From Roseibium limicola (GTDB lineage Bacteria > Pseudomonadota > Alphaproteobacteria > Rhizobiales > Stappiaceae): DNA of 64,000 nt. Positions 9,543 to 50,191 of this stretch are shown in pieces; within the stretch, counting starts at the first letter, position 1, and the number at the start of each line of letters is the position of its first letter. Under the pieces are notes generated by a model. That model saw only the letters and a program-made list of their open reading frames with translations, had not been told where the DNA came from and did no database searches. Where the stretch lies: assembly GCF_017313085.1 (NCBI RefSeq), contig NZ_JAFLNF010000001.1, positions 496,001-560,000 of the forward strand. The letters run 5' to 3'. Both the position numbers and the translations under genes were made by a program.

Positions 9543-11225
9543 TTATTTCAGGATCCCAGGGAGATTGAGATCCTGTTCTCTAGCGCAATCAAGCGCTATT
9601 TCGTAGCCCGCATCTGCATGACGCATGACGCCCGTTGCCGGGTCATTCCACAAGACCCGGCCGACACGTTCTTTCGCGTCGTCTGTACCATCGCAACAGA
9701 TCACCATGCCTGAATGTTGCGAGAAGCCCATACCGACGCCTCCACCGTGGTGCAGCGACACCCAGGTCGCCCCCGAAGCAGTGTTGAGCAGGGCATTCAG
9801 AAGCGGCCAATCCGACACGGCATCGGAGCCGTCTTTCATCGCTTCGGTCTCACGATTGGGCGAAGCAACGGAGCCAGAGTCCAGGTGGTCGCGACCAATC
9901 ACAATCGGTGCCTTCAGTTCACCGGTGCGAACCATTTCATTGAACGCCAAACCCAGACGGTGGCGCTGACCCAATCCAACCCAGCAGATGCGTGCCGGCA
10001 GTCCCTGGAACGAAATCCGCTCGCGCGCCATATCGAGCCAATTGTGCAGGTGCGGATCGTCCGGGATCAGTTCCTTGACCTTCTGATCGGTCTTGTAGAT
10101 GTCTTCCGGATCGCCGGAGAGTGCGCACCAGCGGAACGGGCCGATGCCACGGCAGAACAGCGGTCGAATATAAGCTGGCACGAAACCCGGGAAAGCAAAG
10201 GCATTTTCAAGGCCTTCATCCTTGGCAACCTGACGAATGTTGTTGCCATAGTCGAGCGTCGGAACGCCGGCATCCCAGAAGGCAACCATGGCCTCAACAT
10301 GCTCGCGCATGGATGCACAGGCTGCCTTTTCGACGGCCTTTGGATCGCTTTCACGCTTCTCACGCCATTGCGCGACGGTCCAGCCCTTCGGCAGGTAACC
10401 GTTGATCGGATCATGAGCAGACGTCTGATCGGTGACGATGTCCGGGCGCGCGCCGCCCGCCTTCATCCGCTCAACCAGCTCCGGGAAGATATCGGCGGCA
10501 TTGCCGAGAAGTCCGACGGACTTGGCTTCGCCGGCTTTCGTCCACCTGTCGATCATCGCCAGCGCTTCATCCAGCGAAGTCGCCTTTTCGTCGACGTAGC
10601 CCGTGCGAAGACGAAAATCGATCCGGGTCTCATCGCACTCGACCGCCAGACAGCAGGCACCCGCCATGACAGCCGCCAGAGGCTGTGCGCCCCCCATACC
10701 ACCAAGACCACCTGTCAGGATCCATTTTCCGGTCAGGTCGCCATCAAAGTGCTGGCGTCCTGCTTCGACGAAGGTCTCGTAAGTGCCCTGCACGATCCCT
10801 TGCGTACCAATGTAGATCCACGACCCGGCAGTCATCTGGCCGTACATGGCCAGTCCCTTCTTGTCGAGTTCGTTGAAATGGTCCCAGTTGGCCCAGTGTG
10901 GCACCAGATTGGAGTTGGCAATCAGGACGCGCGGAGCATCCTTGTGGGTGCGGAAAACACCGACTGGCTTGCCGGATTGCACCAGCAGCGTCTCGTTTTC
11001 TTCCAGATCCTTCAGCGCCGCAACAATACGGTCGAAGTCTTCCCAGGTGCGGGCTGCCCGGCCAATCCCGCCGTAGACCACCAGCTCATGCGGATTTTCG
11101 GCCACATCCGGATGAAGATTGTTCATCAACATGCGCAGTGGCGCTTCCGTCAACCAGGACTTGGCGTTCAGCTCGGTACCGGTGGGCGCAAAAACATCGC
11201 GGGCATTGTGACGGCGATCAACCAT
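9543..11225 (-). CDS. hutU: Urocanate hydratase (urocanase)
   Basis: Converts urocanate to 4-imidazolone-5-propionate in the second step of histidine degradation, using tightly bound NAD as an electrophile. The 560-residue length is standard. The start has the conserved [14 protein letters not shown] region. The NAD-binding glycine-rich loop [14 protein letters not shown] and the C-terminal [20 protein letters not shown] block are present. The ATG at 11225 follows GAGGAG and overlaps the end of hutG by 8 bp, so the two are coupled. It is the last enzyme gene of the minus-strand hutIHGU operon. The enzyme is cytoplasmic. Identification is close to certain. Confidence 0.97.
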
Positions 11226-12054
11226 GGTGGTCTCCTCGGGTAGTCTTCTTGTCAGTTGAATTGAGTGCGCCAGCCAGGTCAGCGAGGTCCGACAGGATCA
11301 AGCCAAGGTGCGGCCGCAGCCGGGCGGATCGCTCTTCGCTATAGTCAAACGGCAAGGCTTCGGTCGCCAGATGGGTGCACTGGGCCAGTTCCATCTGGAT
11401 CGCGTGTACATTCGCCTCTGGCTTGCCATAGTGACGGGTTGTCCAGCCGCCTTTGAAGCGTCCGTTCAGGATGCTGTCGTATCCTTCAGCAGCCTTCGTG
11501 CGGGCCAAAACGGCAGCTTCGATCTGCGGCGCGCAAGTGGTGCCGCCGTTGGTCCCAATGTTGAAATCGGGCAGCTTGCCTTCAAACAGAAAAGGAATAT
11601 GCGAACGGATCGAATGGCAGTCATAAAGGATCGCCACACCGTGGATCGCCTTGACCCTCTCGATTTCGGCCGCAAGTGCTGCGTGATAAACCGCATGCCA
11701 CGCAATCCGACGCTCTTCGATTTCCGCCGGATCCGGTGCCTGACCCTCCAGATAAATCGGCAAGCCATCAAAATCTGTCGTTGGGCACAGACCCGTGGTG
11801 TTCTGCCCCGGATAAAGGCTTGCGCCCGCCGGATCCCGATTGGCATCGATGACATAGCGGTGAAAGTTCGCGCAGACCATCGTCGCGCCCGGCAAAAGAT
11901 CACGGTAAAGACGGTCGACATGCCAATCGGTGTCGGCCAGCGCCTTGCCGGTGTCATTCAAGCGCATAAAGATCTCGTCCGGCACATAGGTTCCCGCATG
12001 AGGAACGCCGAGAATGACCGGACTGTTTCCGGCAAAGACATCAACCGGCTGCAT
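11218..12054 (-). CDS. hutG: N-formylglutamate deformylase
   Basis: Hydrolyses N-formyl-L-glutamate to glutamate and formate, the last step of the five-step histidine pathway that uses HutF. The 278-residue protein has the N-formylglutamate amidohydrolase features: [11 protein letters not shown] near the start, a DTDWHVD segment, [13 protein letters not shown], and [13 protein letters not shown]. The metal ligands are expected among these His/Asp residues. It overlaps hutH by 14 bp and hutU by 8 bp. Presence of hutG and hutF together, and absence of a HutE-type formiminoglutamase, fixes the pathway variant. Confidence 0.95.
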
Positions 12055-13609
12055 GGCTGGCCTCCAGGCGGATCAGCGGCGCTGCCGAAATCGAGGCGAC
12101 AAGCGTGCGGTTCAAGACCAACTGGGCTGCAGCGCGTAAGTCAGGCGCCATATAGCGATCGGCCTCAAGAGTTGGCACCACGGCACGCAGACCGTCCAGA
12201 GCCAACTGCAAGGCTGGACTGGTCTTCAGCGGCGCCCGGCACTCGATACCCAGAGCGCCACAAAGCAGTTCGACACCGAGAATATTTGCCAGATTTGCCG
12301 TCATCCGACCAAGGCGACGGGCGCCATGGGCGGCCATGGAAACATGGTCTTCCTGATTGGCGCTGGTCGGAGTGGAATCTGTCGAGCACGGATTGGCGAG
12401 GTGCTTGTTCTCGCTCATGAGTGCTGCCGTCGTCACTTCCGCGATCATCAGCCCGGAATTGAGGCCCGGATCCTTGGCAAGGAACGGCGGCAGATCAAAA
12501 GAGAGCGTCGGATCGACCATAAGCGCGACGCGACGCTGGGCGATGGAGCCGATTTCAGCCACGGCCAGCGCGATCTGATCGGCCGCAAAGGCCACAGGCT
12601 CCGCGTGGAAGTTGCCGCCCGACACGATCAATCCGGCTTCGGTCAGGACAAGTGGATTGTCGGTCGCCGCATTGGCTTCGATTTCCAGCGTGTTCGCTGC
12701 CATCCGCAGAAGGTCGACACACGCACCGGCGACCTGCGGCTGGCAACGAATGCAATAGGGATCCTGTACACGGCTGTCGCCTTCGCGGTGACTTTCCCGG
12801 ATTTCGGAGCCGTCCATCAGCTTGCGCATGGCGGCAGCCACTTCAATCTGACCACGATGGCCGCGCAGCGCATGGATTTCCGGCAACAACGGAGCCGTCG
12901 ATCCCATGATGGCATCGGTGGACAGGCTCGCCGTCAGCAGGCAGGCCTCCGCCATACGCCAGGCCTGAAACAAGCCGATCAGCGCATAGGCGGTCGAAAA
13001 CTGCGTGCCGTTGATCAGTCCAAGACCTTCCTTCGGCCCAAGCACGACAGGTGTCAGCCCGGCCTTTGCCAGAGCATCAGCACCGCTCAGACGCTCGCCG
13101 TCAAACTCGGCTTCGCCTTCGCCGATCATCGCAGCGGTCATATGCGCCAGAGGCGCCAGATCACCGGAGGCCCCAACCGAGCCTTGCGCCGGAACAACGG
13201 GCGTGACGCCCTTCGCCAGCATATTCTCGATCAGTTCCAGCACCTCGAAGCGCACACCGGAGGCGCCGCGCGCCAGCGACATCAGCTTGAGTGCCATCAT
13301 CAGACGCACAGTGGCCGGCTCCATGTCGTCGCCGACACCGCAGCAATGAGACAGAATCAGATTCCGCTGAAGCGTCTCTGTGTCTTCGGCTGCGATCTTG
13401 ACGCTGGCCAGCTTGCCGAAGCCTGTATTGACGCCATAGACGGCCTCATTCCCCATCGCGGCCTGACGGACGCGCTCAGCGGCGGCATCAATGGCAGGAC
13501 GGGCGGCACGGTCAATGGTGACGGCCAGCCCTTCACGGTAGATGCGCTCGAGCGCGTCAAGAGTGACTTTGCCCGGTGTCAGCACCAAGGCGTTTGCCGG
13601 TGCGGTCAT
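12041..13609 (-). CDS. hutH: Histidine ammonia-lyase (histidase)
   Basis: Removes ammonia from L-histidine to give trans-urocanate, the first step of the pathway. The 522-residue protein contains the Ala-Ser-Gly triad at about residues 147-149 ([14 protein letters not shown]) that cyclises to the MIO electrophile. Other lyase motifs are YGVNTGFG near residue 58 and NGTQFSTA. The family block [10 protein letters not shown] lies near the C-terminus. It overlaps hutI by ATGA and hutG by 14 bp. Length and motifs are normal. Confidence 0.97.
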
Positions 13610-14820
13610 TCGGAACCTCCGAAAATACGTTCTTGAAGGGGATTAAAGCCGATGCGATAGGCAAGTTCGGCAGGCGTCTGGAGATCCCAGATGGCGATGT
13701 CGGCCCTTAGGCCCTCACGCAAGGTTCCGCAATCCGCCAGGCCCAGCGCCTTTGCGGCTTCGCGGGTGACGCCTGCAAGTGCCTCTTCGGGCGTCATGCG
13801 GAACAGTGTGCAGGCCATGTTGAGGGTGAGAAGCAGGCTGGTCAGGGGCGACGAGCCCGGATTGCAGTCGGTCGCCAATGCTATGGAGACATCATGCTTG
13901 CGCAGAAGCCCGACCGGCGGGAGCTGCTTTTCGCGCAGGGTGTAGAAGGCACCCGGAAGAAGAACCGCCACAGTGCCGGCGGCCGCCATCTCCTTCACAC
14001 CGGCCTCATCCAGATATTCCAGATGGTCGGCGGACATGGCTCCACGTCGGGCAGCTAATGCGGCGCCGCCAAGGTTCGACAACTGTTCGGCGTGGAGCTT
14101 GATCGGCAGGCCCAGCTCCGCCGCCTTGTCGAACACCCGCGCCATCTGGTTCGGAGAAAAAGCAATCCCTTCGCAAAAGCCGTCAACCGCGTCGACCAGC
14201 CCCTGCGCATGGGCTTCCTCAAGGGTCGGCAGGCAGATCTCGTTGAGATAGCGGTCTTCTTCACCCTTGAACTCGACCGGCACGGCATGAGCGCCGAGGA
14301 AACTGGTCAGCACCCGAACCGGACGCTGCTCACCGACCTTGCGGGCAACACGCAGCATGCGCAACTCGGTCTCCCGGTCAAGACCGTAGCCGGACTTGAT
14401 CTCAAGGGTGGCGACGCCCTCCGCCAACAGCGCATCGACACGTTTCAGCGCATCGATCAGTAGCGCATCTTCGCCGGCTTTACGGGTTGCCTCAACCGTT
14501 GAAACGATGCCACCGCCAGCCTTGGCAACTTCCTCATAAGAGGCCCCATTCAGGCGCATCTCGAATTCCATCGCCCGGTTGCCACCGAACACCACGTGGG
14601 TGTGGCAGTCGATCAGCGCTGGCGTGACCAAAGCTCCTTCAAGATCTTGAGAAGAAAGCGAGGCAAGCTCAGCCGGCAGGCTAGCCTCCGGCCCGCAATA
14701 GCGGATGACGCCATCTTCAATCGCAATCGCACCCTGCTCGACCAGACCATAGGGGCTGGTGCCGGGTTGCATGGTGGCAAGGGTGGCATTTCGTAAAATC
14801 TGGCTCGACACGATGACCAT
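13606..14820 (-). CDS. hutI: Imidazolonepropionase
   Basis: Opens 4-imidazolone-5-propionate to N-formimino-L-glutamate. The 404-residue amidohydrolase has the metal motif [10 protein letters not shown] (His 73 and His 75), then [21 protein letters not shown] and [13 protein letters not shown] in the expected order. It is the first gene of hutIHGU. The ribosome site before the ATG at 14820 is weak, and a GTG a few codons in is an alternative start. The divergent neighbour is hutF, and the 70-bp gap carries the hut promoter and a candidate HutC operator. Confidence 0.96.
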
Positions 14821-14848
14821 TCCGCGCTTGAATAAATTGCGTTAGATG

Positions 14849-14878
14849 AGAATATGCATGCACATAATAACGTGTCAA
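14849..14878 (-). promoter_or_regulatory. hutIHGU promoter with candidate HutC operator
   Basis: On the minus strand a TTGACA box (14878-14873) and a TATTCT box (14854-14849) are separated by 18 bp. Inside the spacer, touching the -10 box, lies the palindrome TGCATGCA at 14855-14862. The symmetry extends to 12 of 14 bases over ATATGCATGCACAT. A repressor bound there would block RNA polymerase. HutC, encoded two genes away, is of the GntR/HutC family, which binds short palindromes of this kind with urocanate as inducer. Confidence 0.6.
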
Positions 14879-14892
14879 CGAGGATTCTGTCA

Positions 14893-16278
14893 GTGACCCA
14901 AGACCGGACAACCCAGCTTCTGGCAAACCAGGCCCTGACACCCGACGGGTGGAAGTCGAACGTTCTGGTGAGCGTCGAGAATGGCCGGATTTCTTCGGTT
15001 ACACCAAATGCCACCGCGCTTCCCGCGTCGGTGGAAAGGCTGGAAACCTTGCTCCCGGCCCCAGCAAACCTGCATTCCCATGCCTTCCAGCGCGCCATGG
15101 CGGGCATGAGCGAGCGCCGCGGTCCGGAAGCCCGCGACACGTTCTGGACATGGCGTCAGATCATGTATCGGTTCCTCGATGTGCTGACCCCCGACGACAT
15201 CGAATCCATTGCCGCCTTCGTGCAGATGGAAATGCTCGAGGCTGGCTATGCCTGTAATGTCGAGTTCCACTATGTTCACCATCAACCCGGCGGTGCGCCT
15301 TACGCCAATTTGGCCGAGCTTTCAGAGCGGATCGCGGCCGCGACTGACCAGAGCGGCATCGGCCTGACGCTTTTGCCGGTGCTTTACAGTCAGGGCGGTT
15401 GTGACGGCGGCCCGCTCGGGCCTGGACAGATCCGGTTTGGCAATGACATTGAGCGCTATCTCCGTCTGCATGAGGGTGCCACCCGCGCAGTTTCCTCCCT
15501 GACCGACGATTGCCGGATGGGCGTTGCCCCGCACTCCCTGCGCGCTGTGCGCCGCGAAGACATTGCCCCCTGCATTGAGCTTGCGGGCACATCGCCTCTG
15601 CACATGCATCTGGCCGAACAGGTGAAGGAAGTCGAAGAAGTCGAAGCCGCCTATGGCCGCCGCCCTGTCAACTGGCTCCTGGAAAATCATGACGTCAGTG
15701 AAAACTGGTGCCTGATCCACTGCACCCAGATGACAGCCTCAGAGACAACAGCCCTGGCACGCACAGGCGCCGTCGCCGGTCTCTGTCCCATCACCGAATC
15801 AAGTCTGGGTGACGGTATCTTCAACGGCGTCGACTACCTGGCTGCCGGTGGGCGGCTAGGCATTGGATCGGATTCCAACGTCCGCATTTCCCTGTCTGAA
15901 GAACTCCGTACCCTGGAATATTCCCAGCGCCTGCGGGACAGATGTCGTGCCAGCGTTGCAACGCCCGAGCGCTCGACCGGTCGCGTGCTGTTTGACGCAG
16001 CCCTCCAAGGCGGCGCCCGCGCTGCGAATCGCGACAGCGGCGCTCTCGCGCCAGGCTCACTCGCGGATTTTCTCGCCCTTGATGGCAATGCAGTGGACCT
16101 TGCCGGCTGCAAAAGCGATGACACACTGGATACCTGGATCTTTGCCGGAAACGACCGGATGGTCACAGACGTCTGGTCCGCTGGGCGGCATCTGGTTAAA
16201 GAGGGCGTCCATATTCGCGGCGACGACATACGCACCCGCTATCGCGCAACGATGAAGGCACTGAGGCAGAGACTTTGA
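14893..16278 (+). CDS. hutF: Formimidoylglutamate deiminase
   Basis: Deiminates N-formimino-L-glutamate to N-formyl-L-glutamate plus ammonia, feeding HutG. It is an amidohydrolase with metal motif NLHSHAFQRAMAG, then HMHLAEQ, LIHCTQM and GIGSDSNVRIS. An upstream in-frame ATG at 14854 would lie inside the hut operator, so I prefer the GTG at 14893 (461 aa), which has ACGAGGA 8 nt upstream and gives a family-like N-terminus (TQDRTTQLLANQAL). Its end overlaps hutC by 4 bp (TTGA). Confidence 0.93.
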   Translation: MTQDRTTQLLANQALTPDGWKSNVLVSVENGRISSVTPNATALPASVERLETLLPAPANLHSHAFQRAMAGMSERRGPEARDTFWTWRQIMYRFLDVLTPDDIESIAAFVQMEMLEAGYACNVEFHYVHHQPGGAPYANLAELSERIAAATDQSGIGLTLLPVLYSQGGCDGGPLGPGQIRFGNDIERYLRLHEGATRAVSSLTDDCRMGVAPHSLRAVRREDIAPCIELAGTSPLHMHLAEQVKEVEEVEAAYGRRPVNWLLENHDVSENWCLIHCTQMTASETTALARTGAVAGLCPITESSLGDGIFNGVDYLAAGGRLGIGSDSNVRISLSEELRTLEYSQRLRDRCRASVATPERSTGRVLFDAALQGGARAANRDSGALAPGSLADFLALDGNAVDLAGCKSDDTLDTWIFAGNDRMVTDVWSAGRHLVKEGVHIRGDDIRTRYRATMKALRQRL

Positions 16279-16976
16279 CAGTCAAGGAAAGCAATAGCTG
16301 GATCCGCATTCGCGAAGAGCTTCTGCGCCGCATCAACGAACGCGTCTGGCAGCCGGGAGAAACCATTCCCGGTGAGGCCGAATTGGCGGAAGAGTTCGGC
16401 TGCGCCCGGACCACCGTCAACCGGGCCCTGCGGGATCTGGCGGAAGCAGGTCTTGTCACCCGAAGGCGCAAGGCGGGAACCCGTGTAGCCGTCAATCCGC
16501 CGCACAAGGCCACCTTTACCATTCCGATCATTCGGGAGGAGGTTGAAGCTCGTGGCTCCAGCTACAGCCATTCTCTGCTGAAACGTGAGAAGCGTCCTCT
16601 TCCGACCTCCCTGCACGCTGCATTTCCAGTCGGGGACGAAGCCTTTCTGCTTTACACGGAAACCGTCTATTTTGCCGACGACCGCCCGTTCATGTTCGAG
16701 GAACGCTACACCAACATTGATGCCACGCCGGCGTTCGCCGAAGCCGCTTTCGATCTGATCAGCCCGAACGAATGGCTGGTTCAAAACGCGCCCTTCACCA
16801 CCGGAGATCTGACCTGCTACGCGGCAAACGCTGGTCCCGCCCTGTCCGGCCTGTACGAATGCCAGGACAACACACCGCTTTTCGTGATGGAACGCGTGAC
16901 GTTTAATCAGACCCAGCCTATCACCCACGTACGCATGACCTACTCACCCGGCTATCGCTTGCGCACCGGCTTCTGA
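16275..16976 (+). CDS. hutC: Histidine utilisation repressor (GntR family, HutC)
   Basis: A 233-residue GntR-type repressor. The N-terminal winged helix covers about residues 8-75 (ETIPGEAELAEEFGCARTTV) and is followed by a UTRA ligand-binding domain of the HutC type, which in known members binds urocanate. The start is a TTG overlapping the hutF stop (TTGA), giving translational coupling. It is expected to repress the divergent hutI and hutF promoters until urocanate accumulates. The ORF ends in the family-typical LRTGF. Confidence 0.92.
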   Translation: MTVKESNSWIRIREELLRRINERVWQPGETIPGEAELAEEFGCARTTVNRALRDLAEAGLVTRRRKAGTRVAVNPPHKATFTIPIIREEVEARGSSYSHSLLKREKRPLPTSLHAAFPVGDEAFLLYTETVYFADDRPFMFEERYTNIDATPAFAEAAFDLISPNEWLVQNAPFTTGDLTCYAANAGPALSGLYECQDNTPLFVMERVTFNQTQPITHVRMTYSPGYRLRTGF

Positions 16977-17002: not shown

Positions 17003-18202
17003 TTAGGCCCAGCCTTTGAGCGCCCGCCCCGAATAATAGCTGGGTGTCGTGGCCCGGTAGAGCGGAATGGTGGCAGCGCCCAGATGCGGCTTGTCACTCA
17101 TCGCGGAAAGGCGGATTTCCGGCGGTTCAACATGAAAATCCTCCCCCAGGATTTCCAGTGAACCCAGATGCTCAACGAAATGCCGGATAATCCAGTCGGG
17201 CAAGGAACCGCCAAACACGATGGCTGTCGGATCAAGCGTACGCGCCACTGTCAGTGATAGGACCCGCAACTGATCCGTTGCCCGGTCAAGCCAGCCGCGA
17301 ATAGCCGGATGATCGCTGTAGCTCTCGTCGATCTCACGCAGGCGCCGAACGTTGATACCCTGCGTTGACAGAAGATTGCACAGGTCCTGACCAGATGGAC
17401 GCGGGTGCGACTTGGGAAACAGCCCGCCAAACTCCCCGGCGTTGCGGTTGGTCCCGCGGTAAAGCTGGCGCTGCACGACGACGGCGCCACCGATGCCATA
17501 GGTCAGCCAGATCAGCGCAAAATTCCGGAGGTTACGCCCAGCGCCATAATAGAGTTCGGACAGAACCACGGCCTTACCGTCGTTCTCGTGAAACACCGGC
17601 ATGTCGAAATAGTCGTCAAAGTCCTTGTTGACGTCGATGTCATGCCAGCTGGAAAACTGCTGGATCTGAAAAACATGACCGGGATTGCGCGAGAAATGCC
17701 CGGGAAACGACAGGCCACATCCAAGCACTCGGCTCCTGTCGATGCCGGCTTGCTTGATCACGGCTTCAACGGCCGGAGACGCCACACCCATGATGTGATC
17801 GAAGCTGTGATCATCCAGCTCCTGAACATGCTCAGCCCTGATTTTTCCCTCAAGATCCGCCACACAGATCCGGATATCGTCGGGGTTGAAATACACCCCA
17901 ACAGTAAACAGGCCCTCCGGATTAAGCTTCACAGCCGTCGAGGGCTTGCCACGACCTGTCGGGGGCCGGCTTTCACTGTCTTCCACTATAAGGGCGCCCT
18001 CAAGAAGGCTAGACGTCAAACGGGTAAGCGTAGGCGCAGAAACCGCCATCTCTCTGGCAAGCTCGATCCGGGACATGCCGCCGCGCCCGCGAAGCAGTTC
18101 AATAACCCGCCGCTCATTATACCCCAGATTGATCAACCCGTTCCCCGCACGCTCTTGACTGACCTTAGACCCTCTACCCGAGAACCGCCAGATAAGCACC
18201 AA
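17003..18202 (-). CDS. ROK-family transcriptional regulator (NagC/XylR type), atypical zinc site
   Basis: A protein of up to 399 residues with an N-terminal winged helix (ERRVIELLRGRGGMSRIELA, then VSAPTLTRLTSSL) and a C-terminal ROK sugar-binding fold (NDGKAVVLSELYYGAGR, then LTYGIGGAVVVQR). After GEFGGLF, where ROK proteins usually carry a CxCGxxGC zinc motif, it reads PKSHPRPSGQDLC, so the zinc cysteines are missing. The reading frame starts at TTG 18202. GTG at 18199 or an internal TTG are alternatives, and no strong ribosome site settles it. It is divergent from an FbpABC-type importer and is its likely repressor. The effector is probably a sugar or sugar derivative. Confidence 0.85.
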   Translation of the reverse strand: MVLIWRFSGRGSKVSQERAGNGLINLGYNERRVIELLRGRGGMSRIELAREMAVSAPTLTRLTSSLLEGALIVEDSESRPPTGRGKPSTAVKLNPEGLFTVGVYFNPDDIRICVADLEGKIRAEHVQELDDHSFDHIMGVASPAVEAVIKQAGIDRSRVLGCGLSFPGHFSRNPGHVFQIQQFSSWHDIDVNKDFDDYFDMPVFHENDGKAVVLSELYYGAGRNLRNFALIWLTYGIGGAVVVQRQLYRGTNRNAGEFGGLFPKSHPRPSGQDLCNLLSTQGINVRRLREIDESYSDHPAIRGWLDRATDQLRVLSLTVARTLDPTAIVFGGSLPDWIIRHFVEHLGSLEILGEDFHVEPPEIRLSAMSDKPHLGAATIPLYRATTPSYYSGRALKGWA

Positions 18203-18433
18203 AAAACGCGATTCTCTCTTCGTCTCTCGATTTCACGGCAGTCTCTATAGATAAATTTTATTGATAAAAATCATAGCCTTATTCTGTTTGTGACAGAATT
18301 GTGAAATTCGTCTTGACTTATTTATTTACGTAATAAAACTTAATAGCTGTCCTCATCCGTCCGAACAATAACCAAACAAGAAAAGTTCAAACGGGCGATG
18401 AGACGCTGGGAACTAACAGTGATGGAGGCTCTA
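18203..18433. promoter_or_regulatory. AT-rich divergent control region with three palindromes
   Basis: This 231-bp AT-rich gap between the ROK gene and the importer holds three inverted repeats: TTTTAT-TG-ATAAAA (18256-18269), ATTCTGT-5 nt-ACAGAAT (18281-18299), and the imperfect TTATTTACGTAATAAA (18322-18337). A TTGACT box at 18313-18318 just upstream of the last could be the -35 of the importer promoter, with TAAAAC about 15 bp further on. ROK repressors of the NagC/Mlc group bind AT-rich palindromes, so these are candidate operators. Confidence 0.5.
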
Positions 18434-19426
18434 TTGAGAATTTCAAATAAACTACGGACGGCGCTCACCGCCGGTGCCGCAATTCTGGGTGCAATATCCG
18501 TCGCACATGCTGATGGCACGGTTGTCGTCTACTCCGCAGCACCACAGCAGCTCGTTGACGAGTTGGTGCCGATGTTCGAAAAACAGACCGGCACAACGGT
18601 CGAAGTTATCAAAGCCGGCTCCGGCGAACTGATGAACCGTCTGAAAGCCGAAGCTGAAAAGCCGGCAGGCGACGTGATCTGGAGTGTTGACGGCACGGTC
18701 ATCGATTTCTCCGCAGAACTTTTCGAGCCCTACAAGCCGGTGGAAGCCGATGCGATCAACCCGAAGTTCACCCCGAGTGAAAACTGGGTTCCGTTTACGG
18801 CAGTCGTCACGGCCTTCATCGTCAACGAAGAAGCCCTGAAAGGCGCACCGGTTCCGACATCCTGGAAAGACCTGACCAAGCCGGAATACAAGGGCCTGAT
18901 CTCGTCCGCACGCGCTGACAAGTCTGGCTCCGCCTATATCCAGCTGGCAACCGTTCTGCAGGATTTCGACACCGAGGAAGCTGGCTGGGATGTCTACAAG
19001 GGCATTCTCTCCAACGCCGTGCTTTCCGCTTCGTCCGGCGCTGTTCCGCGTTTCGTCAATGATGGCGAACAGGGTATCGGCATCACCTTGGAAGATGCAG
19101 CACTACGCTACAAGGTCGGTGGCGCTGACGTTCAGATCGTCTACCCGAGCGAAGGTACGGCCATCGCTCCAGACGGAATGGCACTCGTGAAGGGCGCTCC
19201 GAACGCAGAAAACGGCAAAGCCTTCATCGACTTCATCGTCTCGAAGGAAGCTCAGGAAGCTGTTGCCGGCATCGGCCGTCGCCCGATCCGCACAGATGTT
19301 GCGTCCAACCCGGAACTGATCTCCATCAACGATGTTCCGGATGCAAACTACGACTTTGCGTGGGCTGCGGAAAACCGCGCCCGTCTGGTCGAAACCTGGA
19401 CCGATCTGCTGCTCGACCTCGAGTAG
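18434..19426 (+). CDS. Periplasmic binding protein of FbpA/AfuA-type ABC importer (TTG start)
   Basis: An extracellular solute-binding protein, family 1 (type II fold). TTG at 18434 is chosen over ATG at 18422 because GGAGG ends 5 nt before it and the resulting 330-residue protein begins with a clean signal peptide (LRISNKLRTALT, cut after AHA). The mature protein starts DGTVVVYSAAPQQLVDELV and has GSGELMNRLKAEA and VYPSEGTAIAPDGMALVKGA. No adjacent Tyr-Tyr pair, the usual iron ligand of FbpA, is visible, so iron is unlikely. Sugar phosphates (as for AfuA) or phosphonates fit better. A strong hairpin follows the gene. Confidence 0.85.
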   Translation: MRISNKLRTALTAGAAILGAISVAHADGTVVVYSAAPQQLVDELVPMFEKQTGTTVEVIKAGSGELMNRLKAEAEKPAGDVIWSVDGTVIDFSAELFEPYKPVEADAINPKFTPSENWVPFTAVVTAFIVNEEALKGAPVPTSWKDLTKPEYKGLISSARADKSGSAYIQLATVLQDFDTEEAGWDVYKGILSNAVLSASSGAVPRFVNDGEQGIGITLEDAALRYKVGGADVQIVYPSEGTAIAPDGMALVKGAPNAENGKAFIDFIVSKEAQEAVAGIGRRPIRTDVASNPELISINDVPDANYDFAWAAENRARLVETWTDLLLDLE

Positions 19427-19436: not shown

Positions 19437-19470
19437 CCGGAGGGCGACACCACTCGCCCTCCGGCTTTTC
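19437..19470 (+). terminator. Hairpin after the FbpA-type binding-protein gene
   Basis: A perfect 11-bp stem, CCGGAGGGCGA at 19437-19447 and TCGCCCTCCGG at 19454-19464, with a 6-nt loop, followed by CTTTTCCCT. It looks like an intrinsic terminator placed 10 bp after the stop codon, inside the operon. It probably allows partial read-through to the ATPase and permease genes. Confidence 0.75.
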
Positions 19471-19531: not shown

Positions 19532-20614
19532 ATGGCCGATGTCGAGATCTCGAACATTCGTAAAAGCTATGGCGATGTCGTCGCCCTGTCCGGCATCAAC
19601 ATTTCCATTCCCTCGGGATCTTTCTTCACGCTCTTGGGCCCGAGCGGCTGTGGCAAGACCACCCTGCTGCGCACCATTGCCGGTTTTCACCAGCAAGACA
19701 GCGGTGGCATCGGCATCCAGGGGCAGGCGATTGAACACACGCCAGCGCACAAGCGCGACGTCGGCATGGTGTTTCAGGATTACGCCGTTTTCCCGCACAT
19801 CAGCGTCTACGACAATATTGCCTTTGGCCTGAAGCAGCGAAAAATCTCCAAGTCGGAGATTTCCGAGCGCGTTGCAAAGATCCTCGACATCGTGCAGCTC
19901 ACTGACTACGCCGACCGCATGCCACATGAGCTTTCCGGCGGCCAGCAGCAGCGTGTCGGCCTCGCCCGCGCCCTGGTCATCAATCCGAAAGTTCTGCTCA
20001 TGGATGAGCCGCTTTCCAATCTCGACGCAAAACTGCGTGTTGATCTGCGCCGCGAACTGCGCGCGATCCAGCAGTCGATGAACATCACCACTGTCTACGT
20101 TACCCACGATCAGGAAGAAGCTCTGGCGATGTCCGACATTGTCTGTGTGATGTATGGCGGTGTCATCCAGCAGGCCGCGCCGCCCTGGGAAGTCTACAAC
20201 AGCCCGTCGAACAAGTTCGTGGCGTCGTTTGTCGGTGCCAACAACTTCCTGACGCTAGAATGGGATGGCGGGCAGCCCTCCCTTGCGGGCACGCCTGTCG
20301 CCCTGCCCCAGGCCAAGCCCCTGCCGAATGCAGACAAGGTTGTTGCAGCCATCCGGCCAGAATTCATCTCGGTCAACCCGACAATATCCTCCCCCGACAC
20401 GATCACTCTCTCTGCCAAGATCCGCCTCGTGAGTTTTACCGGGCGTGAAATGAATGTCGCCGCTGTCCTTGCATCTGGCGAAGAGATAGAGGCGATCACA
20501 GCTCCTTCTCCCGCAATCCTCGCGCTCAAGACAGACGACGACATCACGCTCGCCTTCCCAGCCAGCGACGTGCAGATCTTTGCAGACGCGGTGACAGGAG
20601 AGCGTTTGTCATGA
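19532..20614 (+). CDS. ABC transporter ATP-binding protein, FbpC/PotA-like
   Basis: A 360-residue ATPase of the iron/polyamine/2-AEP importer class. Walker [10 protein letters not shown] is at about residues 36-44, the signature is [15 protein letters not shown], Walker B is VLLMDEPLSNLDAKL, the switch His is in [14 protein letters not shown], and there is a C-terminal TOBE region. The ATG at 19532 (GGAG 8 nt upstream) starts directly at the cassette. The frame extends 12 codons further upstream without support. It overlaps the permease gene by ATGA. Confidence 0.88.
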   Translation: MADVEISNIRKSYGDVVALSGINISIPSGSFFTLLGPSGCGKTTLLRTIAGFHQQDSGGIGIQGQAIEHTPAHKRDVGMVFQDYAVFPHISVYDNIAFGLKQRKISKSEISERVAKILDIVQLTDYADRMPHELSGGQQQRVGLARALVINPKVLLMDEPLSNLDAKLRVDLRRELRAIQQSMNITTVYVTHDQEEALAMSDIVCVMYGGVIQQAAPPWEVYNSPSNKFVASFVGANNFLTLEWDGGQPSLAGTPVALPQAKPLPNADKVVAAIRPEFISVNPTISSPDTITLSAKIRLVSFTGREMNVAAVLASGEEIEAITAPSPAILALKTDDDITLAFPASDVQIFADAVTGERLS

Positions 20615-22290
20615 GCTCACTTGCCACCCTCTTGCCAGGTTCCCGGCTGAGAATGCCGGGATTTTGGACCGTCATCACAGCGCTCGCCGTGCTGCTTCTG
20701 GCCGTGTTTCTTCTACTACCGATCCTCAACGTCTTCGCCATCAGCTTTTTCGATGCCAAGACCGGCGACTTCGGCGTGTCGAACTACATCCAGGTTCTGA
20801 CCCGACGCTATTACACAACGGCACTTTGGAACACGATCATCATCGGCGCGCTGGGAATGCTCGGCGCCTGCCTCATCGGTATTCCGCTCGCCTTCTGCAC
20901 CTCCCGCTACCGGATCCGTGGACGCGCAGTCATCGCGACCTTTGCGGTTCTCGTGCTTTGCGCCCCGCCTTTCATTGGCGCCTATGCCTGGATCATGCTG
21001 TTCGGCTCCAACGGCGCCGTCACCAACATCCTGAAGAGCATCGGCATCGACATGCCGACGATCTACGGTATTCCCGGAATCGTTCTGGTCTTCAGCCTCA
21101 AGTTCTTTCCTTACATCTACCTGATGACGGAAAACGCGCTGAACACGATCAACAAGTCCTATGAAGATGCGGCGGAAAACCTCGGTTGCACGGCTTTTCA
21201 GCGGTTCATGAAAGTCACTCTTCCGTTGGTTTTCCCGGCTGTCAGCACCGGGGCAATCATCTGCTTCGTGCTGTCGATTGCCGACTTCGGAACACCCGCC
21301 ATTCTGGGCCGTGGTGTCCGGACGCTCTCGACGATCGCCTATTCGCAATACACCTCAGAAATGGCTGGAACGCCGACCATGGCCGTGACAATCTCCATGT
21401 TGATGATCGCAATCTCCATGGCGGCCCTTCTTCTGCAGCGCCGTATTCTGGCAAAGCGTCGCTATGCCAGCGCCCTGACCAACCGTCCGGTAAAACAGTC
21501 GCTGACAGGCTCGAAGTCGCTCCTCGTGCATGGGTTCTGCTACGCGGTTGTCTTCCTCGCCATGCTGCCGTCGCTGACCGTCGTCTACACATCCTTTCTC
21601 GCCACCAGCGGCCCGGTCTTCACCGGCGGCTTTGGCTTGGGAAGCTATGAACGTGTCCTACACAACTCGCCGACCGCTATTGCCAACAGCTTCATGTTTG
21701 CCTTTGGAGCGGTCGTGTTGATCGCCATTGTCTCCGGGTTGTTGTCCTTCATCGTCGTCCGCAAAGACAATGTCGTCGCAGGCTCTCTCGACCTGCTGCT
21801 GATGGTGCCGTATCTGATCCCCGGCGTGGTGATGGCCATCGGCTATGTGGCGACCTTCCGCAATCCTCCCTTCGACATCACCGGCACGGCGCTGATCATC
21901 ATCTTGATCGTCTTCATCCGGCGACTGCCCTACGGCGTGCGATCGACGACGTCGATCCTCCGTCAGATCAAGCCTTCCATTGAGGAAGCTGCGGTCAATC
22001 TCGGCGCCTCACCGGCCAAGACCTTCACATCGATCACCGTGCCTCTGATGACGCCCGGTTTGATAATCGGATCGCTCATGAGTTTCATCACGGCGATCAA
22101 CGAGCTGTCTTCAACGCTGATCCTCTACACGTCCCGAACCATCACCATGCCCGTGCTGATCTACATTCAGGTCATTGACGGCGAGTTCGGGACGGCGGCG
22201 GCTCTCTCCACATTGCTCCTCCTCAGCACCGGCATCTGCGTCTTCGCGGTGTTCCGAATGTCGGAGAGCAAGGAATCCGCCTTCGTCTGA
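20611..22290 (+). CDS. Two-domain ABC permease, FbpB-like
   Basis: A 559-residue membrane protein made of two fused permease domains, about 12 hydrophobic segments. Each half carries an EAA loop: YEDAAENLGCTAFQRFMKVT at about residues 190-210, and IEEAAVNLGASPAKTFTSIT near residues 455-475. This double architecture is typical of FbpB/AfuB-type importers and means one gene supplies the whole channel. It is coupled to the ATPase by a 4-bp overlap. The following 78-bp gap leads to a PP2C-like gene on the same strand. Confidence 0.88.
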   Translation: MSSLATLLPGSRLRMPGFWTVITALAVLLLAVFLLLPILNVFAISFFDAKTGDFGVSNYIQVLTRRYYTTALWNTIIIGALGMLGACLIGIPLAFCTSRYRIRGRAVIATFAVLVLCAPPFIGAYAWIMLFGSNGAVTNILKSIGIDMPTIYGIPGIVLVFSLKFFPYIYLMTENALNTINKSYEDAAENLGCTAFQRFMKVTLPLVFPAVSTGAIICFVLSIADFGTPAILGRGVRTLSTIAYSQYTSEMAGTPTMAVTISMLMIAISMAALLLQRRILAKRRYASALTNRPVKQSLTGSKSLLVHGFCYAVVFLAMLPSLTVVYTSFLATSGPVFTGGFGLGSYERVLHNSPTAIANSFMFAFGAVVLIAIVSGLLSFIVVRKDNVVAGSLDLLLMVPYLIPGVVMAIGYVATFRNPPFDITGTALIIILIVFIRRLPYGVRSTTSILRQIKPSIEEAAVNLGASPAKTFTSITVPLMTPGLIIGSLMSFITAINELSSTLILYTSRTITMPVLIYIQVIDGEFGTAAALSTLLLLSTGICVFAVFRMSESKESAFV

Positions 22291-22368
22291 CCGGCCACGG
22301 GCCACTCGATCTCAAAATACGCGCACCGGCCCCGGCCGGAGCGACCCCGTATGTCCAAAGGAACGTCC

Positions 22369-23316
22369 ATGAACATCGAGGCCTTCTCGCGTTCGAAGTA
22401 TAAAAACAGCACCAAGCCTGGTGACGATGTCATCCTGATCGAACCCGACCAGGTTCTGGCGGTCTTCGACGGTGCGACTGATCCGACTGGCGCATTTTAC
22501 AACGGAGAGAGTTCGGGGCGGATTGCAGCCCGAAGCGCCGCACGGTGTGTCGCCGACATGCTGGTGCGTGGAACGCTGGATGAAGCGCCGGCGGAAATGA
22601 TCTTTCAGGAAATCAGCACCTCTGTGAAAACCGCAGCGCAGGAACGCAACGTCGCGCACCCCGCCTCAACGACGGCGGCCCTTGCAGTCAAATGCGGTGA
22701 CATGTACCGAATTCTTGCCTTGGGCGACACCGGGGTGCGCCTCAACGGCACGAAAATCCTGCAGCACCACAAGATCATCGACACCGTCAGCACTGCCGCG
22801 CGCATTCAGGTTCACAAGACGCTCAGCCAAAGAATGGACGAGAGCGATGACGTCGAATTTGCGACCCGGCAGACGATCTTTCTGGGACTAGAGGCCGCCA
22901 TCGAAACCGGCAAGCTGACCCGGCAAGAGACCGAGCTCGCAATTCAGGCCGCGACCCAGGCCTCAGGCTTGCCGCAAAGTGTGGTGGCAGAGTTTCTCTC
23001 TGGCGGCATTCGCACCCAGTTTCACTATGCCAATGCTGATCACCTGCTTGGCTTTGCATCCCTCAATGGCGGCCAGGTGATTGCGAACGGCCTGACAGAT
23101 CTCACCATTCCAGCCTCTGAGCTTGAAAGCATCGAGATCTTCTCAGACGGCTATATTTCCATTCCAACCTCCGGCATTCGCTGTGCCGATTGGGAAGCGG
23201 AATTTACCCGCGTAGAAACCGAAGACTTTCACAAGACCGGCGCCTTCCCTGCGGTCAAGGGTTCGACCTCCAGCGAAACTTGCGACGACCGCACTGTCAT
23301 CTCCGCCGGAATTTAA
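22369..23316 (+). CDS. PP2C-like serine/threonine protein phosphatase
   Basis: A 315-residue protein of the PP2C/PPM fold. Motifs read in order: VLAVFDGATDPTG (metal Asp, motif 2) near residue 30, then STTAALAVKCGDMYRILALGD (core strands and the GDTGVRL motif), ESIEIFSDGYIS (SDG motif) and CDDRTVISAGI (the terminal D-D/N motif). No signal peptide or membrane segment is seen, so it is cytoplasmic. ATG at 22369 is preferred over 22351 because AAGGA lies 7 nt upstream. It is the last gene of an importer operon, an unusual place for a protein phosphatase. Its substrate could be a protein or, less usually, a small imported phosphate ester. Confidence 0.75.
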   Translation: MNIEAFSRSKYKNSTKPGDDVILIEPDQVLAVFDGATDPTGAFYNGESSGRIAARSAARCVADMLVRGTLDEAPAEMIFQEISTSVKTAAQERNVAHPASTTAALAVKCGDMYRILALGDTGVRLNGTKILQHHKIIDTVSTAARIQVHKTLSQRMDESDDVEFATRQTIFLGLEAAIETGKLTRQETELAIQAATQASGLPQSVVAEFLSGGIRTQFHYANADHLLGFASLNGGQVIANGLTDLTIPASELESIEIFSDGYISIPTSGIRCADWEAEFTRVETEDFHKTGAFPAVKGSTSSETCDDRTVISAGI

Positions 23317-23346: not shown

Positions 23347-23374
23347 ACACCGGCGCATGGGCATGTGCCGGTGT
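23347..23374. terminator. Hairpin between convergent PP2C and GNAT genes
   Basis: An inverted repeat, ACACCGGC at 23347-23354 and GCCGGTGT at 23367-23374, extended inwards by GCATG/CATGT, lies in the 81-bp gap between convergent genes. There is no strong T tract on either side, so terminator function is likely from position but not certain. Confidence 0.5.
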
Positions 23375-37926: not shown

Positions 37927-37929
37927 GAC

Positions 37930-41537: not shown

Positions 41538-41563
41538 AGGCGTCAGCTCAGACTGATCGGGAC

Positions 41564-47027: not shown

Positions 47028-47063
47028 CAAAAGCAGAAGCTTGACCTCAAGCTTCCGCTTTTG
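47028..47063. terminator. Bidirectional terminator between rhaI and ROK kinase genes
   Basis: A long stem with one A-C mismatch, CAAAAGC-A-GAAGCTTG (47028-47043) and CAAGCTTC-C-GCTTTTG (47048-47063), with a 4-nt loop. It has A/T-rich outer ends on both sides, so it can stop transcription in both directions. Its right arm overlaps the last codons of the minus-strand kinase gene. Confidence 0.8.
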
Positions 47064-47985
47064 GCATTTCCAAAGCCTGCTCAAGCCGTTGAAAACCCAA
47101 AATGGCGGCGCCGATCAGTCCGGGCTCAACGCGGGCCTGCGCCGGAACCACCAAAGGCCAGCGGAATTTACGCAATGTACGCGCTCGGGTCTGTTCATCC
47201 AGCCGTTTGATCAGACCGCTCGCGTTGGATAAGCCACCGCCCACAGGAATGAGCGACGCTCCGGTCAAATTCACCAGGACAGCCAATGGGCCGGTCAGCA
47301 GGTCCACATAAACTGAAATTGTTTTTTCCGCCTGTTCATTCCCCTGCTCCCAGCAGTCGATGATCTCCAGGCTGGTCAGATTCCGGCTATGCAGATGATG
47401 GTGAATGCGCTCCAGTCCGCGAGCGCTGCAAATGGCATCAAGACACCCGGTCTGCCCGCACCCGCAGGCAAACTGCGGTACGCTTCGAGCAGGTACACCG
47501 GCCTGAATGGCGGATATGGGCCCATGACCCCATTCACCGGCATACCCACCATTTTGATTGATGAGCTCTCCCCGAACCACCAGTCCTCCGCCCACACCGG
47601 ACCCCAGAATAGCGCCGAAGACGATGTCGTGCCCTTTGCCAGCGCCATACGTCGCCTCTGTCAGCGCAAAGCAGTCCGCGTCATTCGCGACCACGACTGG
47701 GAGCTTGAGGAGGCGTTCCAGATCGGCGACCAGATTCCGCCCGTGAATGCATGGGATATTCGCAACGATCATTGTGTTGATGTCCGGATCGACGATCCCG
47801 GCAATGGAAAGTGCGACGCAACTCGGCTTTTGCGGAGCCGCCTTAATCACCGCAGCCAACTGACGGACAAATTCATCGAAGTCGTCTATCGGAGTTGGTA
47901 CCCGTGGGACGGGTACAACCTCTTGAGGACCATGCGCATAGGCCCCCTTGATGGTCGTGCCGCCGATATCGAAGCAGACGATCAC
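47047..47985 (-). CDS. nagK: ROK-family sugar kinase, probable N-acetylglucosamine kinase
   Basis: A 312-residue ROK kinase. The ATP loop CFDIGGTTIKGAYA is at the N-terminus, the catalytic Asp is in VANDADCFAL, and the zinc motif CGCGQTGCLDAICS is intact. It probably phosphorylates N-acetylglucosamine to the 6-phosphate for NagA. GTG at 47985 overlaps the nagA stop as GTGA, with GGGAG 8 nt upstream, and is preferred over the ATG at 48012. It is the last gene of the minus-strand amino-sugar operon (GntR, nagB-II, nagA, kinase). Confidence 0.85.
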   Translation of the reverse strand: MIVCFDIGGTTIKGAYAHGPQEVVPVPRVPTPIDDFDEFVRQLAAVIKAAPQKPSCVALSIAGIVDPDINTMIVANIPCIHGRNLVADLERLLKLPVVVANDADCFALTEATYGAGKGHDIVFGAILGSGVGGGLVVRGELINQNGGYAGEWGHGPISAIQAGVPARSVPQFACGCGQTGCLDAICSARGLERIHHHLHSRNLTSLEIIDCWEQGNEQAEKTISVYVDLLTGPLAVLVNLTGASLIPVGGGLSNASGLIKRLDEQTRARTLRKFRWPLVVPAQARVEPGLIGAAILGFQRLEQALEMPKAEA

Positions 47986-49172
47986 GCCACCAGCTCCCGA
48001 TGATCCAGCCATTCGCCACCGATCACGCTCGCCTGTATGTCCATGTCCTTGTTCAGAACCAGAAAGTCTGCCCGATTACCGGAGGCAAGCAGGCCGAAAC
48101 CATCCAGTCCGCATGCTTCTGCGGGATAGCGCGTCGCCATGCGAACCGCTTCGTCAAGACCCATCCCGATGGTTTTGATCATGAACCTGACGCAGGACAG
48201 CATGTCGATATCAGCTCCGGCAAGTGTGCCGTCGGCCAGGGTCAGGCGACCACCTCGGCGGAAAACTTCGCGGCCATTCAGCTGGAAGCTCTGTTCAGTC
48301 GAGCCGATGGAAGACATGGCATCGGTCACCAGAAACACGTGCCCCGGGCCTCGCTTTGCATCCAGCGCAATCTGGATGGCCAACGGGTCAACGTGGTGAC
48401 CATCCGCAATCAGACCACAGCTTAATTCTCCCAACCCGATAGCAGCCCCGACCAGACCCGGATCCCGGTGATGAAGCGGGCTCATGGCATTGAACAGATG
48501 CGTGACCATCGTCGCCCCGGCGGCAACGAACTTTCGGATGTCATCCAGCCCTGCATTCGAATGCCCAAGACTGACGACGACCTCGGCTTCGACCAGCGCC
48601 CGCACCTGATCCGGCGTGGTGCTTTCAGGTGCCAAAGTAACCAGCAGTTTCGGCAAGAGCAAAGCTGCTTCCACGAGGCGTTGCACGTCGTCTTCGGTCA
48701 TCGGTCGAATAAGATCGGGGGAATGAGTGCCCTTGCGTGCCACTGACAAGTGTGGCCCTTCCAGATGCAACCCCGCAAAACCGGAAACTTTCGCCTGGGT
48801 TGCAGCCACACCGGCAGCAATAGCGCGCTCCGTGATCTCGGCCGTGTCCGTGATCAATGTTGGCAACAAGGCTGTCGTGCCAAATGCCCTATGCGCAGAA
48901 CAGATCTTCTGAATACCAGCCAGGGATGGGTCGTTGTTCAGGAGCACTCCGCCACCGCCGTTCACCTGTAAATCGACAAAGCCCGGAACAATGAGACAGC
49001 CTTCGCAGTCGTGACGTTGCGATGCGCGTTGAAACGCCGCTTCGTCGCCAATACCCGCAACCACACTGCCACTCACAGCAAGAGCACGATCTTCATGCCA
49101 CGCATGGCCGTCGAAAATGCGCGCTCCGGTAACAAGCACCGGAGAGATTTCGGTTTGAGCCGTCGGCATCAT
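47982..49172 (-). CDS. nagA: N-acetylglucosamine-6-phosphate deacetylase
   Basis: Removes acetate from GlcNAc-6-phosphate to give glucosamine-6-phosphate. The 396-residue amidohydrolase has PGFVDLQVNGGGGV (in place of the HxH motif, as usual for NagA), LHLEGPHLSVARKG with the metal Glu, VVSLGHSNAG, HLFNAMSPLHHRDPG, and LVTDAMSSIGS with the catalytic Asp. The start codon overlaps the nagB-II stop (ATGATG). Cytoplasmic. Length and motifs are normal. Confidence 0.94.
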   Translation of the reverse strand: MMPTAQTEISPVLVTGARIFDGHAWHEDRALAVSGSVVAGIGDEAAFQRASQRHDCEGCLIVPGFVDLQVNGGGGVLLNNDPSLAGIQKICSAHRAFGTTALLPTLITDTAEITERAIAAGVAATQAKVSGFAGLHLEGPHLSVARKGTHSPDLIRPMTEDDVQRLVEAALLLPKLLVTLAPESTTPDQVRALVEAEVVVSLGHSNAGLDDIRKFVAAGATMVTHLFNAMSPLHHRDPGLVGAAIGLGELSCGLIADGHHVDPLAIQIALDAKRGPGHVFLVTDAMSSIGSTEQSFQLNGREVFRRGGRLTLADGTLAGADIDMLSCVRFMIKTIGMGLDEAVRMATRYPAEACGLDGFGLLASGNRADFLVLNKDMDIQASVIGGEWLDHRELVA

Positions 49173-50191
49173 AGGGTCTCAGTCACCTTCTGCAGGACAG
49201 CCGGGGAATCCGGATTGAAATTGCGGTCTCGGGAAAGCTGTTCCACCATCTTGTAGTAGGGAATGATCTGCAAGAGAGCATCAGTCAAAGGATGCGCGCC
49301 CTCAACACACGGCAACACATGCGCAGCTTTGGCCTTGGACGACGTGACAAAGACCTCATTGCTCCTGCCAGCCAGCTGATCGGCAACGTCAACGGCAGTC
49401 ATCTCGGCTTCGTCGCCAGCTGCAAAGACCAGAACCGGAAACCCATTGCCTACAAGTGAAACCGGACCATGCAGAACTTCGGCGGAAGAATAGGCCTCAG
49501 CGTGCAGTTCGCAGGTTTCCTTGCATTTCAAAGCCGCTTCGCCGGCAATCGCCAGCGAGGGACCCCGCCCGAGGAAATACAGCGACTGCGCATCCGTCAA
49601 CCGATTACCAAGCGCCGACCAGTCGAGCTTCAAGGCCTGCTCTGCCTGCTCCGGCAACAGCGCCAATGCCTTTTTCAACTCCTCGTCTTCCGTCCACTCG
49701 GCCAGAATGAACAGACCAGCCACAATCGAATTGAAGTAGGTCTTTGTTGCCGCGACGGCCAACTCAGGTCCCGCAGCAAGGGAGATCGCGGCTGCGCTGG
49801 CATCTGCCAGCGGTGATGGGATCGTGTTGATCAGACCAACCGAGTAGGCACCCGACTTTGTCACCATCTCGGCGAGCGCGACGATGTCAGGGCTCTTTCC
49901 GGATTGGGAAATTGCCAGAGCCGCACTTCCCTTCAGTTTCAGGGTGCGGTTGTAAATCGAGGCGAGAGACGGCCCCAGGGAGGCGACCGGAACCCCGGCC
50001 TGCAACTCCACCGCATACTTCAGAAAGCTCGCGGCATGATCCGATGTCCCTCTGGCGACGGTTACCAGAACAGAAGGATCAAGCGATTTCAACTTGCTGC
50101 CAGCAGCCCGCATGTCTCCATCGGACTGCGACAGAAGACGAGAAATCGCTTCGGGTATCTCGCAGATCTCTTTGTACATATTGGACGGCAT
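49169..50191 (-). CDS. nagB-II: Glucosamine-6-phosphate deaminase, NagB-II type (double SIS domain)
   Basis: A 340-residue protein with two SIS domains and no glutamine amidotransferase domain, thus related to the isomerase half of GlmS. Motifs are VARGTSDHAASFLKYAVEL and ISQSGKSPDIVALAEMV in SIS1, and FLGRGPSLAIAGEAALKCKE and EVLHGPVSLVGNG in SIS2. With nagA directly downstream it is expected to convert glucosamine-6-phosphate to fructose-6-phosphate and ammonia. Alphaproteobacteria often use this form instead of classical NagB. It is coupled to nagA by a 4-bp overlap. Confidence 0.9.
   Translation of the reverse strand: MPSNMYKEICEIPEAISRLLSQSDGDMRAAGSKLKSLDPSVLVTVARGTSDHAASFLKYAVELQAGVPVASLGPSLASIYNRTLKLKGSAALAISQSGKSPDIVALAEMVTKSGAYSVGLINTIPSPLADASAAAISLAAGPELAVAATKTYFNSIVAGLFILAEWTEDEELKKALALLPEQAEQALKLDWSALGNRLTDAQSLYFLGRGPSLAIAGEAALKCKETCELHAEAYSSAEVLHGPVSLVGNGFPVLVFAAGDEAEMTAVDVADQLAGRSNEVFVTSSKAKAAHVLPCVEGAHPLTDALLQIIPYYKMVEQLSRDRNFNPDSPAVLQKVTETL

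Follow-up and report, generated by a model that had tools for sequence, protein, structure and literature searches.

A PP2C-fold phosphatase gene linked to an AfuA/P5PA-like ABC importer suggests an undescribed uptake system in Roseibium and relatives

Results

The operon in the window

The window, that is, the whole stretch of 64,000 nucleotides analysed here (G000:C1:496001-560000), comes from a Roseibium limicola genome of 4.5 Mb. The following features were located in it.

17003..18202, - strand: ROK-family regulator gene, divergent from the operon (Pfam ROK, 70.8 bits; cut-off 22.9)
18312..18344, + strand: conserved block with TTGACT and TACGTAA, kept in six aligned intergenic regions
18398..19426, + strand: periplasmic solute-binding protein (SBP), AfuA/P5PA-like (Pfam SBP_bac_6, 112.2 bits)
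19437..19464, + strand: 11-bp hairpin between the SBP and ATPase genes
19532..20614, + strand: ABC transporter ATPase with TOBE domain (Pfam ABC_tran and TOBE_2)
20611..22290, + strand: fused permease with two BPD_transp_1 stretches (Pfam), overlapping the ATPase gene by 4 bases
22369..23316, + strand: PP2C-fold phosphatase, last gene of the operon (Pfam PP2C_2); the open reading frame reaches back to 22351
23347..23374, + strand: 12-bp hairpin 3' of the PP2C gene; the 104-nt stretch folds with a z of -3.94
47047..50191, - strand: cluster of NagK-like, NagA, and NagB-II-like genes (NCBIfam), 24-27 kb from the PP2C gene

Pfam matches and open reading frames confirmed the layout proposed by a sequence-only reading, namely a full PP2C protein with the metal Asp motifs as the last gene after a binding protein, an ATPase, and a fused permease, with a divergent ROK gene. 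The regulator has a ROK domain, and its best NCBIfam name is NagC, at 86.7 bits against an equivalog cut-off of 650. A ROK homologue stands in the same place in L002, L003, L035-L039, L041-L043, L047, L095, and L096.

The conserved block before the SBP gene is likely a promoter/operator. A consensus promoter scan did not pick it up. This promoter/terminator scan gave 3 promoter-like sites where 2.3 were expected, none of them 5' of the SBP gene, and we therefore gave it little weight. The permease stop lies 60 bases before the start of the PP2C open reading frame, or 78 bases before its Met7. The scan, which misses any SBP promoter, found no promoter-like or terminator-like site in this gap; this is weak evidence against a separate promoter for the phosphatase gene. 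The hairpin at 23347..23374 possibly marks the operon end, and the scan scored no T-run there as a terminator.

By eye, a hut histidine-utilisation set with HutF and a HutC-type regulator (9543-16976) lies directly upstream of the ROK gene, and a rhamnose-type uptake/catabolic cluster with a DeoR-type regulator lies at 36209-43417.

The PP2C-type protein

The PP2C open reading frame (22351-23316, + strand) has 321 codons. We prefer the start at 22369, because Met7 is near-invariant in 18 aligned homologues. The protein matched Pfam PP2C_2 at 28.9 bits (gathering cut-off, 24), with one other, sub-threshold chance family, and all 18 homologues matched PP2C_2 with E values of 0.01 or better. D26, D40-G41, G125-D126, D266-G267, and D312-D313 are kept in all 18 sequences; we take D26, D40, D126, D266, and D313 to be the PP2C metal sites. 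The PP2C_2 domain and the invariant metal aspartates are common to this protein and the PstP-type bacterial PP2C/PPM enzymes. Unlike these, the clade of the window has its own invariant residues (R130, R151, K303, and R314 in the 18 homologues) and is linked to an importer. The basic phosphate-binding residue of motif 1 is not conserved: position 22, the place of the usual PP2C motif-1 arginine (RxxNED-type), is K, R, Q, A, V, E, P, or D among the 18 homologues. Residue K16, which is K or R in 18/18, could take the place of that arginine.

An NCBIfam search with the protein and a phmmer search of the PDB with the single sequence gave no match, and a profile of the 18 homologues reached PstP structures only at E values of 0.006-0.0075. 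The AF2 model was weak (pLDDT 53.5, 3 input sequences). A Foldseek search with this weak model placed PP2C structures on top; two matches had E values of 0.001 or less, both of them plant PP2C with TM-scores of about 0.33, which is weak support.

Only 18 residues lie between Met7 and the first motif aspartates. These are too few to include a signal peptide, and the enzyme therefore probably resides and acts in the cytoplasm. A simple hydropathy measure did not separate the N-termini of the PP2C protein and the SBP.

The binding protein and the class of the importer

The SBP profile matched best AfuA (4r72, 188.8 bits), 8x1a (185.9 bits, annotated as iron-compound binding), and P5PA (6wce, 161.9 bits). 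Lower matches were 6lki/6lkg (about 139 bits), which we take to be the hexose-phosphate sensor HptA, iron binders from 123.5 bits, and the AEP-annotated 4r6y (109 bits). A structure model of the SBP was unusable (pLDDT 33.4, 3 input sequences).

We mapped the AfuA contacts (PMC4546632, PMC8427247) onto 26 SBPs, except T60 and Y103, which were unmappable. AfuA S37, G38, S148, G149, T150, and G185 correspond to S75, G76, S176, G177, S178, and G214 of the window protein. At this phosphate end of the pocket, S176, S178, and S213 are kept in 26 of the 26 sequences, G76 and G177 in 25, G214 in 21, and S75 in 19 (V in 5, A in 1, and T in 1). At the sugar end, H205 of AfuA is replaced by E (24 sequences) or D (2), D206 is retained in 21, E229 varies, and Q269 is R in 26/26. 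In PMC4546632, H205, D206, and E229 form the sugar-holding motif by which its authors define AfuA; the window SBP has E232, D233, and A257 there and thus lacks the motif. With neither H205 nor E229 present, it cannot be taken for granted that the protein binds the ligands of AfuA. The sequence-only reading is partly supported: the phosphate end is retained and nag/aga genes occur nearby (see below), but two of the residues that hold the sugar are lost. A phosphate ester is nevertheless supported as the putative ligand by the AfuA/P5PA-like end of the pocket together with these neighbours.

An iron importer (FbpABC) was ruled out because the SBP has no adjacent iron-binding tyrosines, as the earlier reading had noticed. 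In the alignment, D233-A234 stands where iron-binding SfuA has YY, a pair that we assume to be its iron ligands. S176-G177 is common to both proteins; S75-G76, S178, and S213 are not found in SfuA.

The nearest NCBIfam families were phnS2 (179.2 bits; equivalog cut-off 392.75), PhnT2 (367.1; 457.7), and PhnU2 (180.8; 593.25). As all three scores fall below the curated cut-offs, we rejected an assignment as a PhnS2/T2/U2 aminophosphonate importer by name. An importer of 2-aminoethylphosphonate or phosphoethanolamine was kept among the candidates because these are the best NCBIfam names, and E232, D233, and D259 could hold an amine. We consider it very improbable: the AEP-annotated structure matched far below AfuA, the regulators are ROK, DeoR, and LacI-like, nag genes recur near the unit, and no phosphonate catabolic genes were recognised by eye in the gene lists.

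Distribution and linkage of the PP2C gene and the importer

Searches with the single PP2C protein found the gene in 13 of 87 genomes of the family (12 strong matches, and a weak one in G402 with an E value of 4e-6) and in 8 of 385 genomes of the class. Profile searches found it in 22/347 genomes of the order (13 strong; 9 only weak, of a different relative), 3/398 of the phylum, 6/7 of f59, and 38/136 of f179. These samples overlap, and the genome of the window is counted in the family, class, order, phylum, and f59 samples. The PP2C family is patchily distributed; the phylum sample added one genome from beyond the class (G1041), and the relative found there is weak. Roseibium suaedae and R. 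litorale are among the genomes with the gene.

Strong PP2C matches and the SBP orthologue occur in exactly the same 12 of the 87 family genomes, and the SBP orthologues other than that of the window are 63-85% identical to it. The next SBP relatives (33-36% identical; G389, G390, and G412) come from genomes without the PP2C gene. We mapped 79 loci, 75 of which have PP2C above the threshold (L087-L090, with a weak relative, are below it). The SBP, ATPase, and permease genes lie within 5.5 kb of the PP2C gene in 60 of these 75 loci, which are non-independent, 39 of them being from one family, f179. The linkage in relatives that the sequence-only reading called for is thus conserved, and the co-occurrence of PP2C and SBP, with the repeated linkage, led us to reject a chance neighbourhood.

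The importer set is partial in seven loci (L034, L040, L046, L121, L125, L028, and L128), the first five of which are near contig ends. L028 and L128 have the order SBP-PP2C-permease with no ATPase gene between the PP2C and permease genes; the ATPase may be elsewhere. Another ABC importer adjoins the PP2C gene in three loci (L027, L097, and L075). That of L027 is of a carbohydrate type, and the order ATPase-Gfo/Idh-PP2C is common to L027 and L097. L075 (8664-10450) has a differently composed ABC importer followed by a glycerophosphodiesterase gene that shares 4 bases with the PP2C gene. No importer was found within the same measure in five loci (L044, L045, L048, L084, and L086). Both L045 and L084 begin where a contig ends; a carbohydrate-type importer occurs in L045, 3-8 kb further along.

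Several more distant relatives were seen. The weak relative in L044 (9373-10326) begins with a stretch that resembles a signal peptide, and no importer lies close to it. L086 (9021-17927) has a distant relative (E value 9e-19) in a hexuronate-type uptake cluster with UxaC, a mannitol-dehydrogenase-type gene, TRAP DctM, and UxuA. The weaker PP2C-like relative of L087 (6761-8373) has no Pfam match and adjoins a trehalose-phosphatase-like HAD gene; by eye, the same pairing occurs in L088-L090.

Gene orders and genomic places

The loci fall into the following gene orders.

Type A, ROK<>SBP-ABC-PERM-PP2C: family f1, the Neorhizobium plasmid L047, L095, and L096; the same order minus ROK in L076 and L085
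Type B, PP2C<>SBP-ABC-PERM: L030-L032 and L130
Type C, SBP-PP2C-ABC-PERM: for example, L029, L033, L083, and L116
Type E, PERM-ABC<>SBP-PP2C, mostly with a DeoR gene next: L077-L079, L081, L082, and most f179 loci; without DeoR after PP2C in L080

In many loci, the PP2C gene overlaps or closely adjoins its same-strand neighbour. The regulators typed at the PP2C loci are ROK, DeoR, and LacI-like.

A blastn comparison of the 4-kb flanks of 12 type-A loci gave matches only within L037-L039 and within L042-L043. The cassette thus sits at nine different genomic places in these 12 loci. One full relative (L047) and one fragment (L048) are plasmid-borne. The fragment, on pDG3-1a of Agrobacterium salinitolerans (L048, 10001-10309), covers query residues 214-304, has no importer, and contains an in-frame run of Gly-Lys repeats; by appearance, it is a remnant. 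In L047, an unannotated record, the ROK (4638-5769) and NagA (13058-14157) genes are split by frame, which is either real or a sequencing fault.

Amino-sugar genes near the unit

We searched for neighbours within 10.5 kb with NagA, NagB, NagB-II, AgaS, SIS, and kinase queries. An amino-sugar gene was found in 19 of the 75 loci, from five families, but 15 of the 19 belong to f179; the other 56 loci have none within this distance. The matches were NagA in 15 loci (that of L107 being doubtful, at 29% and 98 bits), NagB in 13, AgaS, kinase, and SIS in 2 each, and NagB-II in 1. From position alone, 0.4-1.2 NagA loci would be expected, given 1-3 copies per 4.2 Mb and with kinship ignored. NCBIfam backs the NagA and NagB names at the neighbour loci, with scores below the equivalog cut-offs.

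In L105 and L111, SBP-PP2C-DeoR-NagB-NagA are contiguous on one strand, and no kinase was recognised in the gene lists of these two loci. NagB is divergent and adjoins the SBP gene in L103 and L116 (type C). In L047 (type A), an AgaS-family SIS gene, a GlcNAc-kinase-like ROK gene, and NagA pieces follow PP2C. L041 has KbaZ/GatZ-like, NagA-like, and phosphoglucomutase-type genes. The nag genes of the window were left out of the 19/75 count, being 24-27 kb from the PP2C gene. The NagA among them exceeds the TIGR00221 cut-off; the NagK-like and NagB-II-like genes are below the equivalog cut-offs. A Gfo/Idh gene (51396-52580) and an ABC ATPase gene (55689-56825) adjoin this cluster and are 50% and 55% identical, respectively, to the L027 genes that precede PP2C.

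A sulfatase-like gene (L105, 2277-3875) lies on the same strand 3' of the SBP-PP2C-DeoR-NagB-NagA run, with another ABC importer between. Because of it, we retained the reading that the importer takes an anionic, unphosphorylated amino sugar, such as a sulfated or carboxylated N-acetylhexosamine, and that the substrate of PP2C is a phosphorylated intermediate further along the route, or a protein. The loss of the sugar end of AfuA, with R at Q269 in every SBP, and the kinase-like genes after PP2C in L047 and L084 would fit such a route. We regard it as improbable, since the sulfatase-like gene occurs in one locus only, with scores below equivalog cut-offs, and the SBPs retain most of the residues at the phosphate end.

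Search for a partner kinase

Known PP2C enzymes act on phosphoproteins and are signalling enzymes paired with kinases. The main alternative is a protein phosphatase that gates uptake, its target being the ATPase, the regulator, or a protein of general carbon control, for example Ser-phosphorylated HPr. Over 27 loci, the PP2C distances correlate with the SBP distances (r 0.83) and with the permease distances (r 0.78), and none of 2000 permutations was as high. Such correlations are expected of partners and equally of a pathway enzyme, and relatedness alone also yields them. The faster divergence of PP2C (within type A, its mean identity is 44%, and that of importer proteins 62% and 67%) also counts in favour of a protein phosphatase. 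However, no Ser/Thr kinase was recognised by eye in the gene lists of the loci, where one histidine kinase stands beside L076. A PF00069 search for a free Hanks kinase in the genome of the window gave one match, which is in the same open reading frame as another PP2C. Moreover, the PP2C gene also stands beside unrelated importers (L027, L075, and L097), as would suit an enzyme more than a partner matched to a single ATPase. We consider control of uptake by a protein phosphatase unlikely, if still worth serious thought.

The kinase-PP2C_2 reading frame mentioned above (G000:C11:341988-343403; L092, 6692-8455, - strand) has, by eye, neighbours for nitrite transport and nitrate/nitrite reduction, of an assimilation-like kind.

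Discussion

Comparison with known systems

The nearest characterised binding protein is that of AfuABC, an ABC importer of hexose and heptose phosphates (PMC4546632), with which the window SBP shares the phosphate-end residues. The window SBP differs from it by H205 to E, E229 to A, and Q269 to R. Units of the window type also have PP2C and a ROK, DeoR, or LacI-like regulator, whereas the available part of PMC4546632 names no phosphatase partner for AfuABC. The second characterised relative, P5PA, binds pyridoxal phosphate and holds the phosphate in a GTG/STG-type manner, as does AfuA; its ligand end differs from that of the window SBP, and neither PP2C nor nag genes appear in the part of PMC8427247 available to us. 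The transporter class is also common to the PhnS2/T2/U2 and AepXVW importers of 2-aminoethylphosphonate. According to the main text of PMC8316502, AepS and AepX both belong to Pfam13343, which the window SBP matches too; the word phosphatase is absent from that main text on AepXVW. NagA, NagB, and AgaS/kinase genes of the Nag/Aga catabolic clusters (NagC, NagQ, and NagR regulons, PMC5343134) adjoin the unit in some loci. In the main text of that article, transport in the core Nag regulons is by PTS or other transporters, and neither phosphatase nor PP2C occurs.

Searches of open-licence PMC papers turned up no account of a PP2C next to an importer of this kind, nor of a tie of the two to amino-sugar genes. 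The importer and the phosphatase are of known kinds; what appears new is their stable union and the tie to amino sugars. The latter link was absent from the sequence-only reading.

Proposed function

Together, these observations suggest an undescribed uptake system, with PP2C either working on a sugar phosphate that has been taken up or regulating the importer. With a confidence just short of even, we propose that the five-gene unit imports a phosphorylated N-acetylhexosamine and that PP2C acts on the phospho-sugar in the cytoplasm. Gene order, linkage, the metal site, the lack of iron tyrosines, the phosphate end of the pocket, and the nag/aga neighbours support this proposal; from them we infer which ligand is carried, that PP2C acts in the cytoplasm, and what reaction it performs. 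The AfuA/P5PA-like SBP would grip the sugar ester by its phosphate in the periplasm, the ATPase and the fused permease would carry the phospho-sugar inward, and the ROK regulator would sense a sugar and control the divergent promoter. The cytoplasmic PP2C would then hydrolyse the phosphate of the imported phospho-sugar. This step could be required, releasing the sugar for renewed phosphorylation and entry into NagA/NagB (or AgaS) catabolism, or it could serve as a valve that keeps phospho-sugars from accumulating.

As NagA uses GlcNAc-6-P directly, a phosphatase looks wasteful for imported GlcNAc-6-P. The puzzle would disappear if the phosphate sat on a different carbon or if the enzyme dealt with overflow. 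Rather tentatively, we extend the proposal to the whole branch: this branch of the PP2C fold may have become a metabolite phosphatase and a regular part of phospho-amino-sugar uptake operons, mainly in Alphaproteobacteria, that dephosphorylates imported N-acetylhexosamine phosphate.

No enzyme of the PP2C fold is known to us for which a metabolite substrate has been proven. A PP2C clade that travels with nutrient importers, and frequently with amino-sugar genes, would be either the first natural metabolite phosphatase of this fold known to us or a sign of phosphorylation control of a common importer class. The unit would also offer a way into importers whose present names refer to iron or phosphonates, and would point to phosphorylated amino sugars as nutrients.
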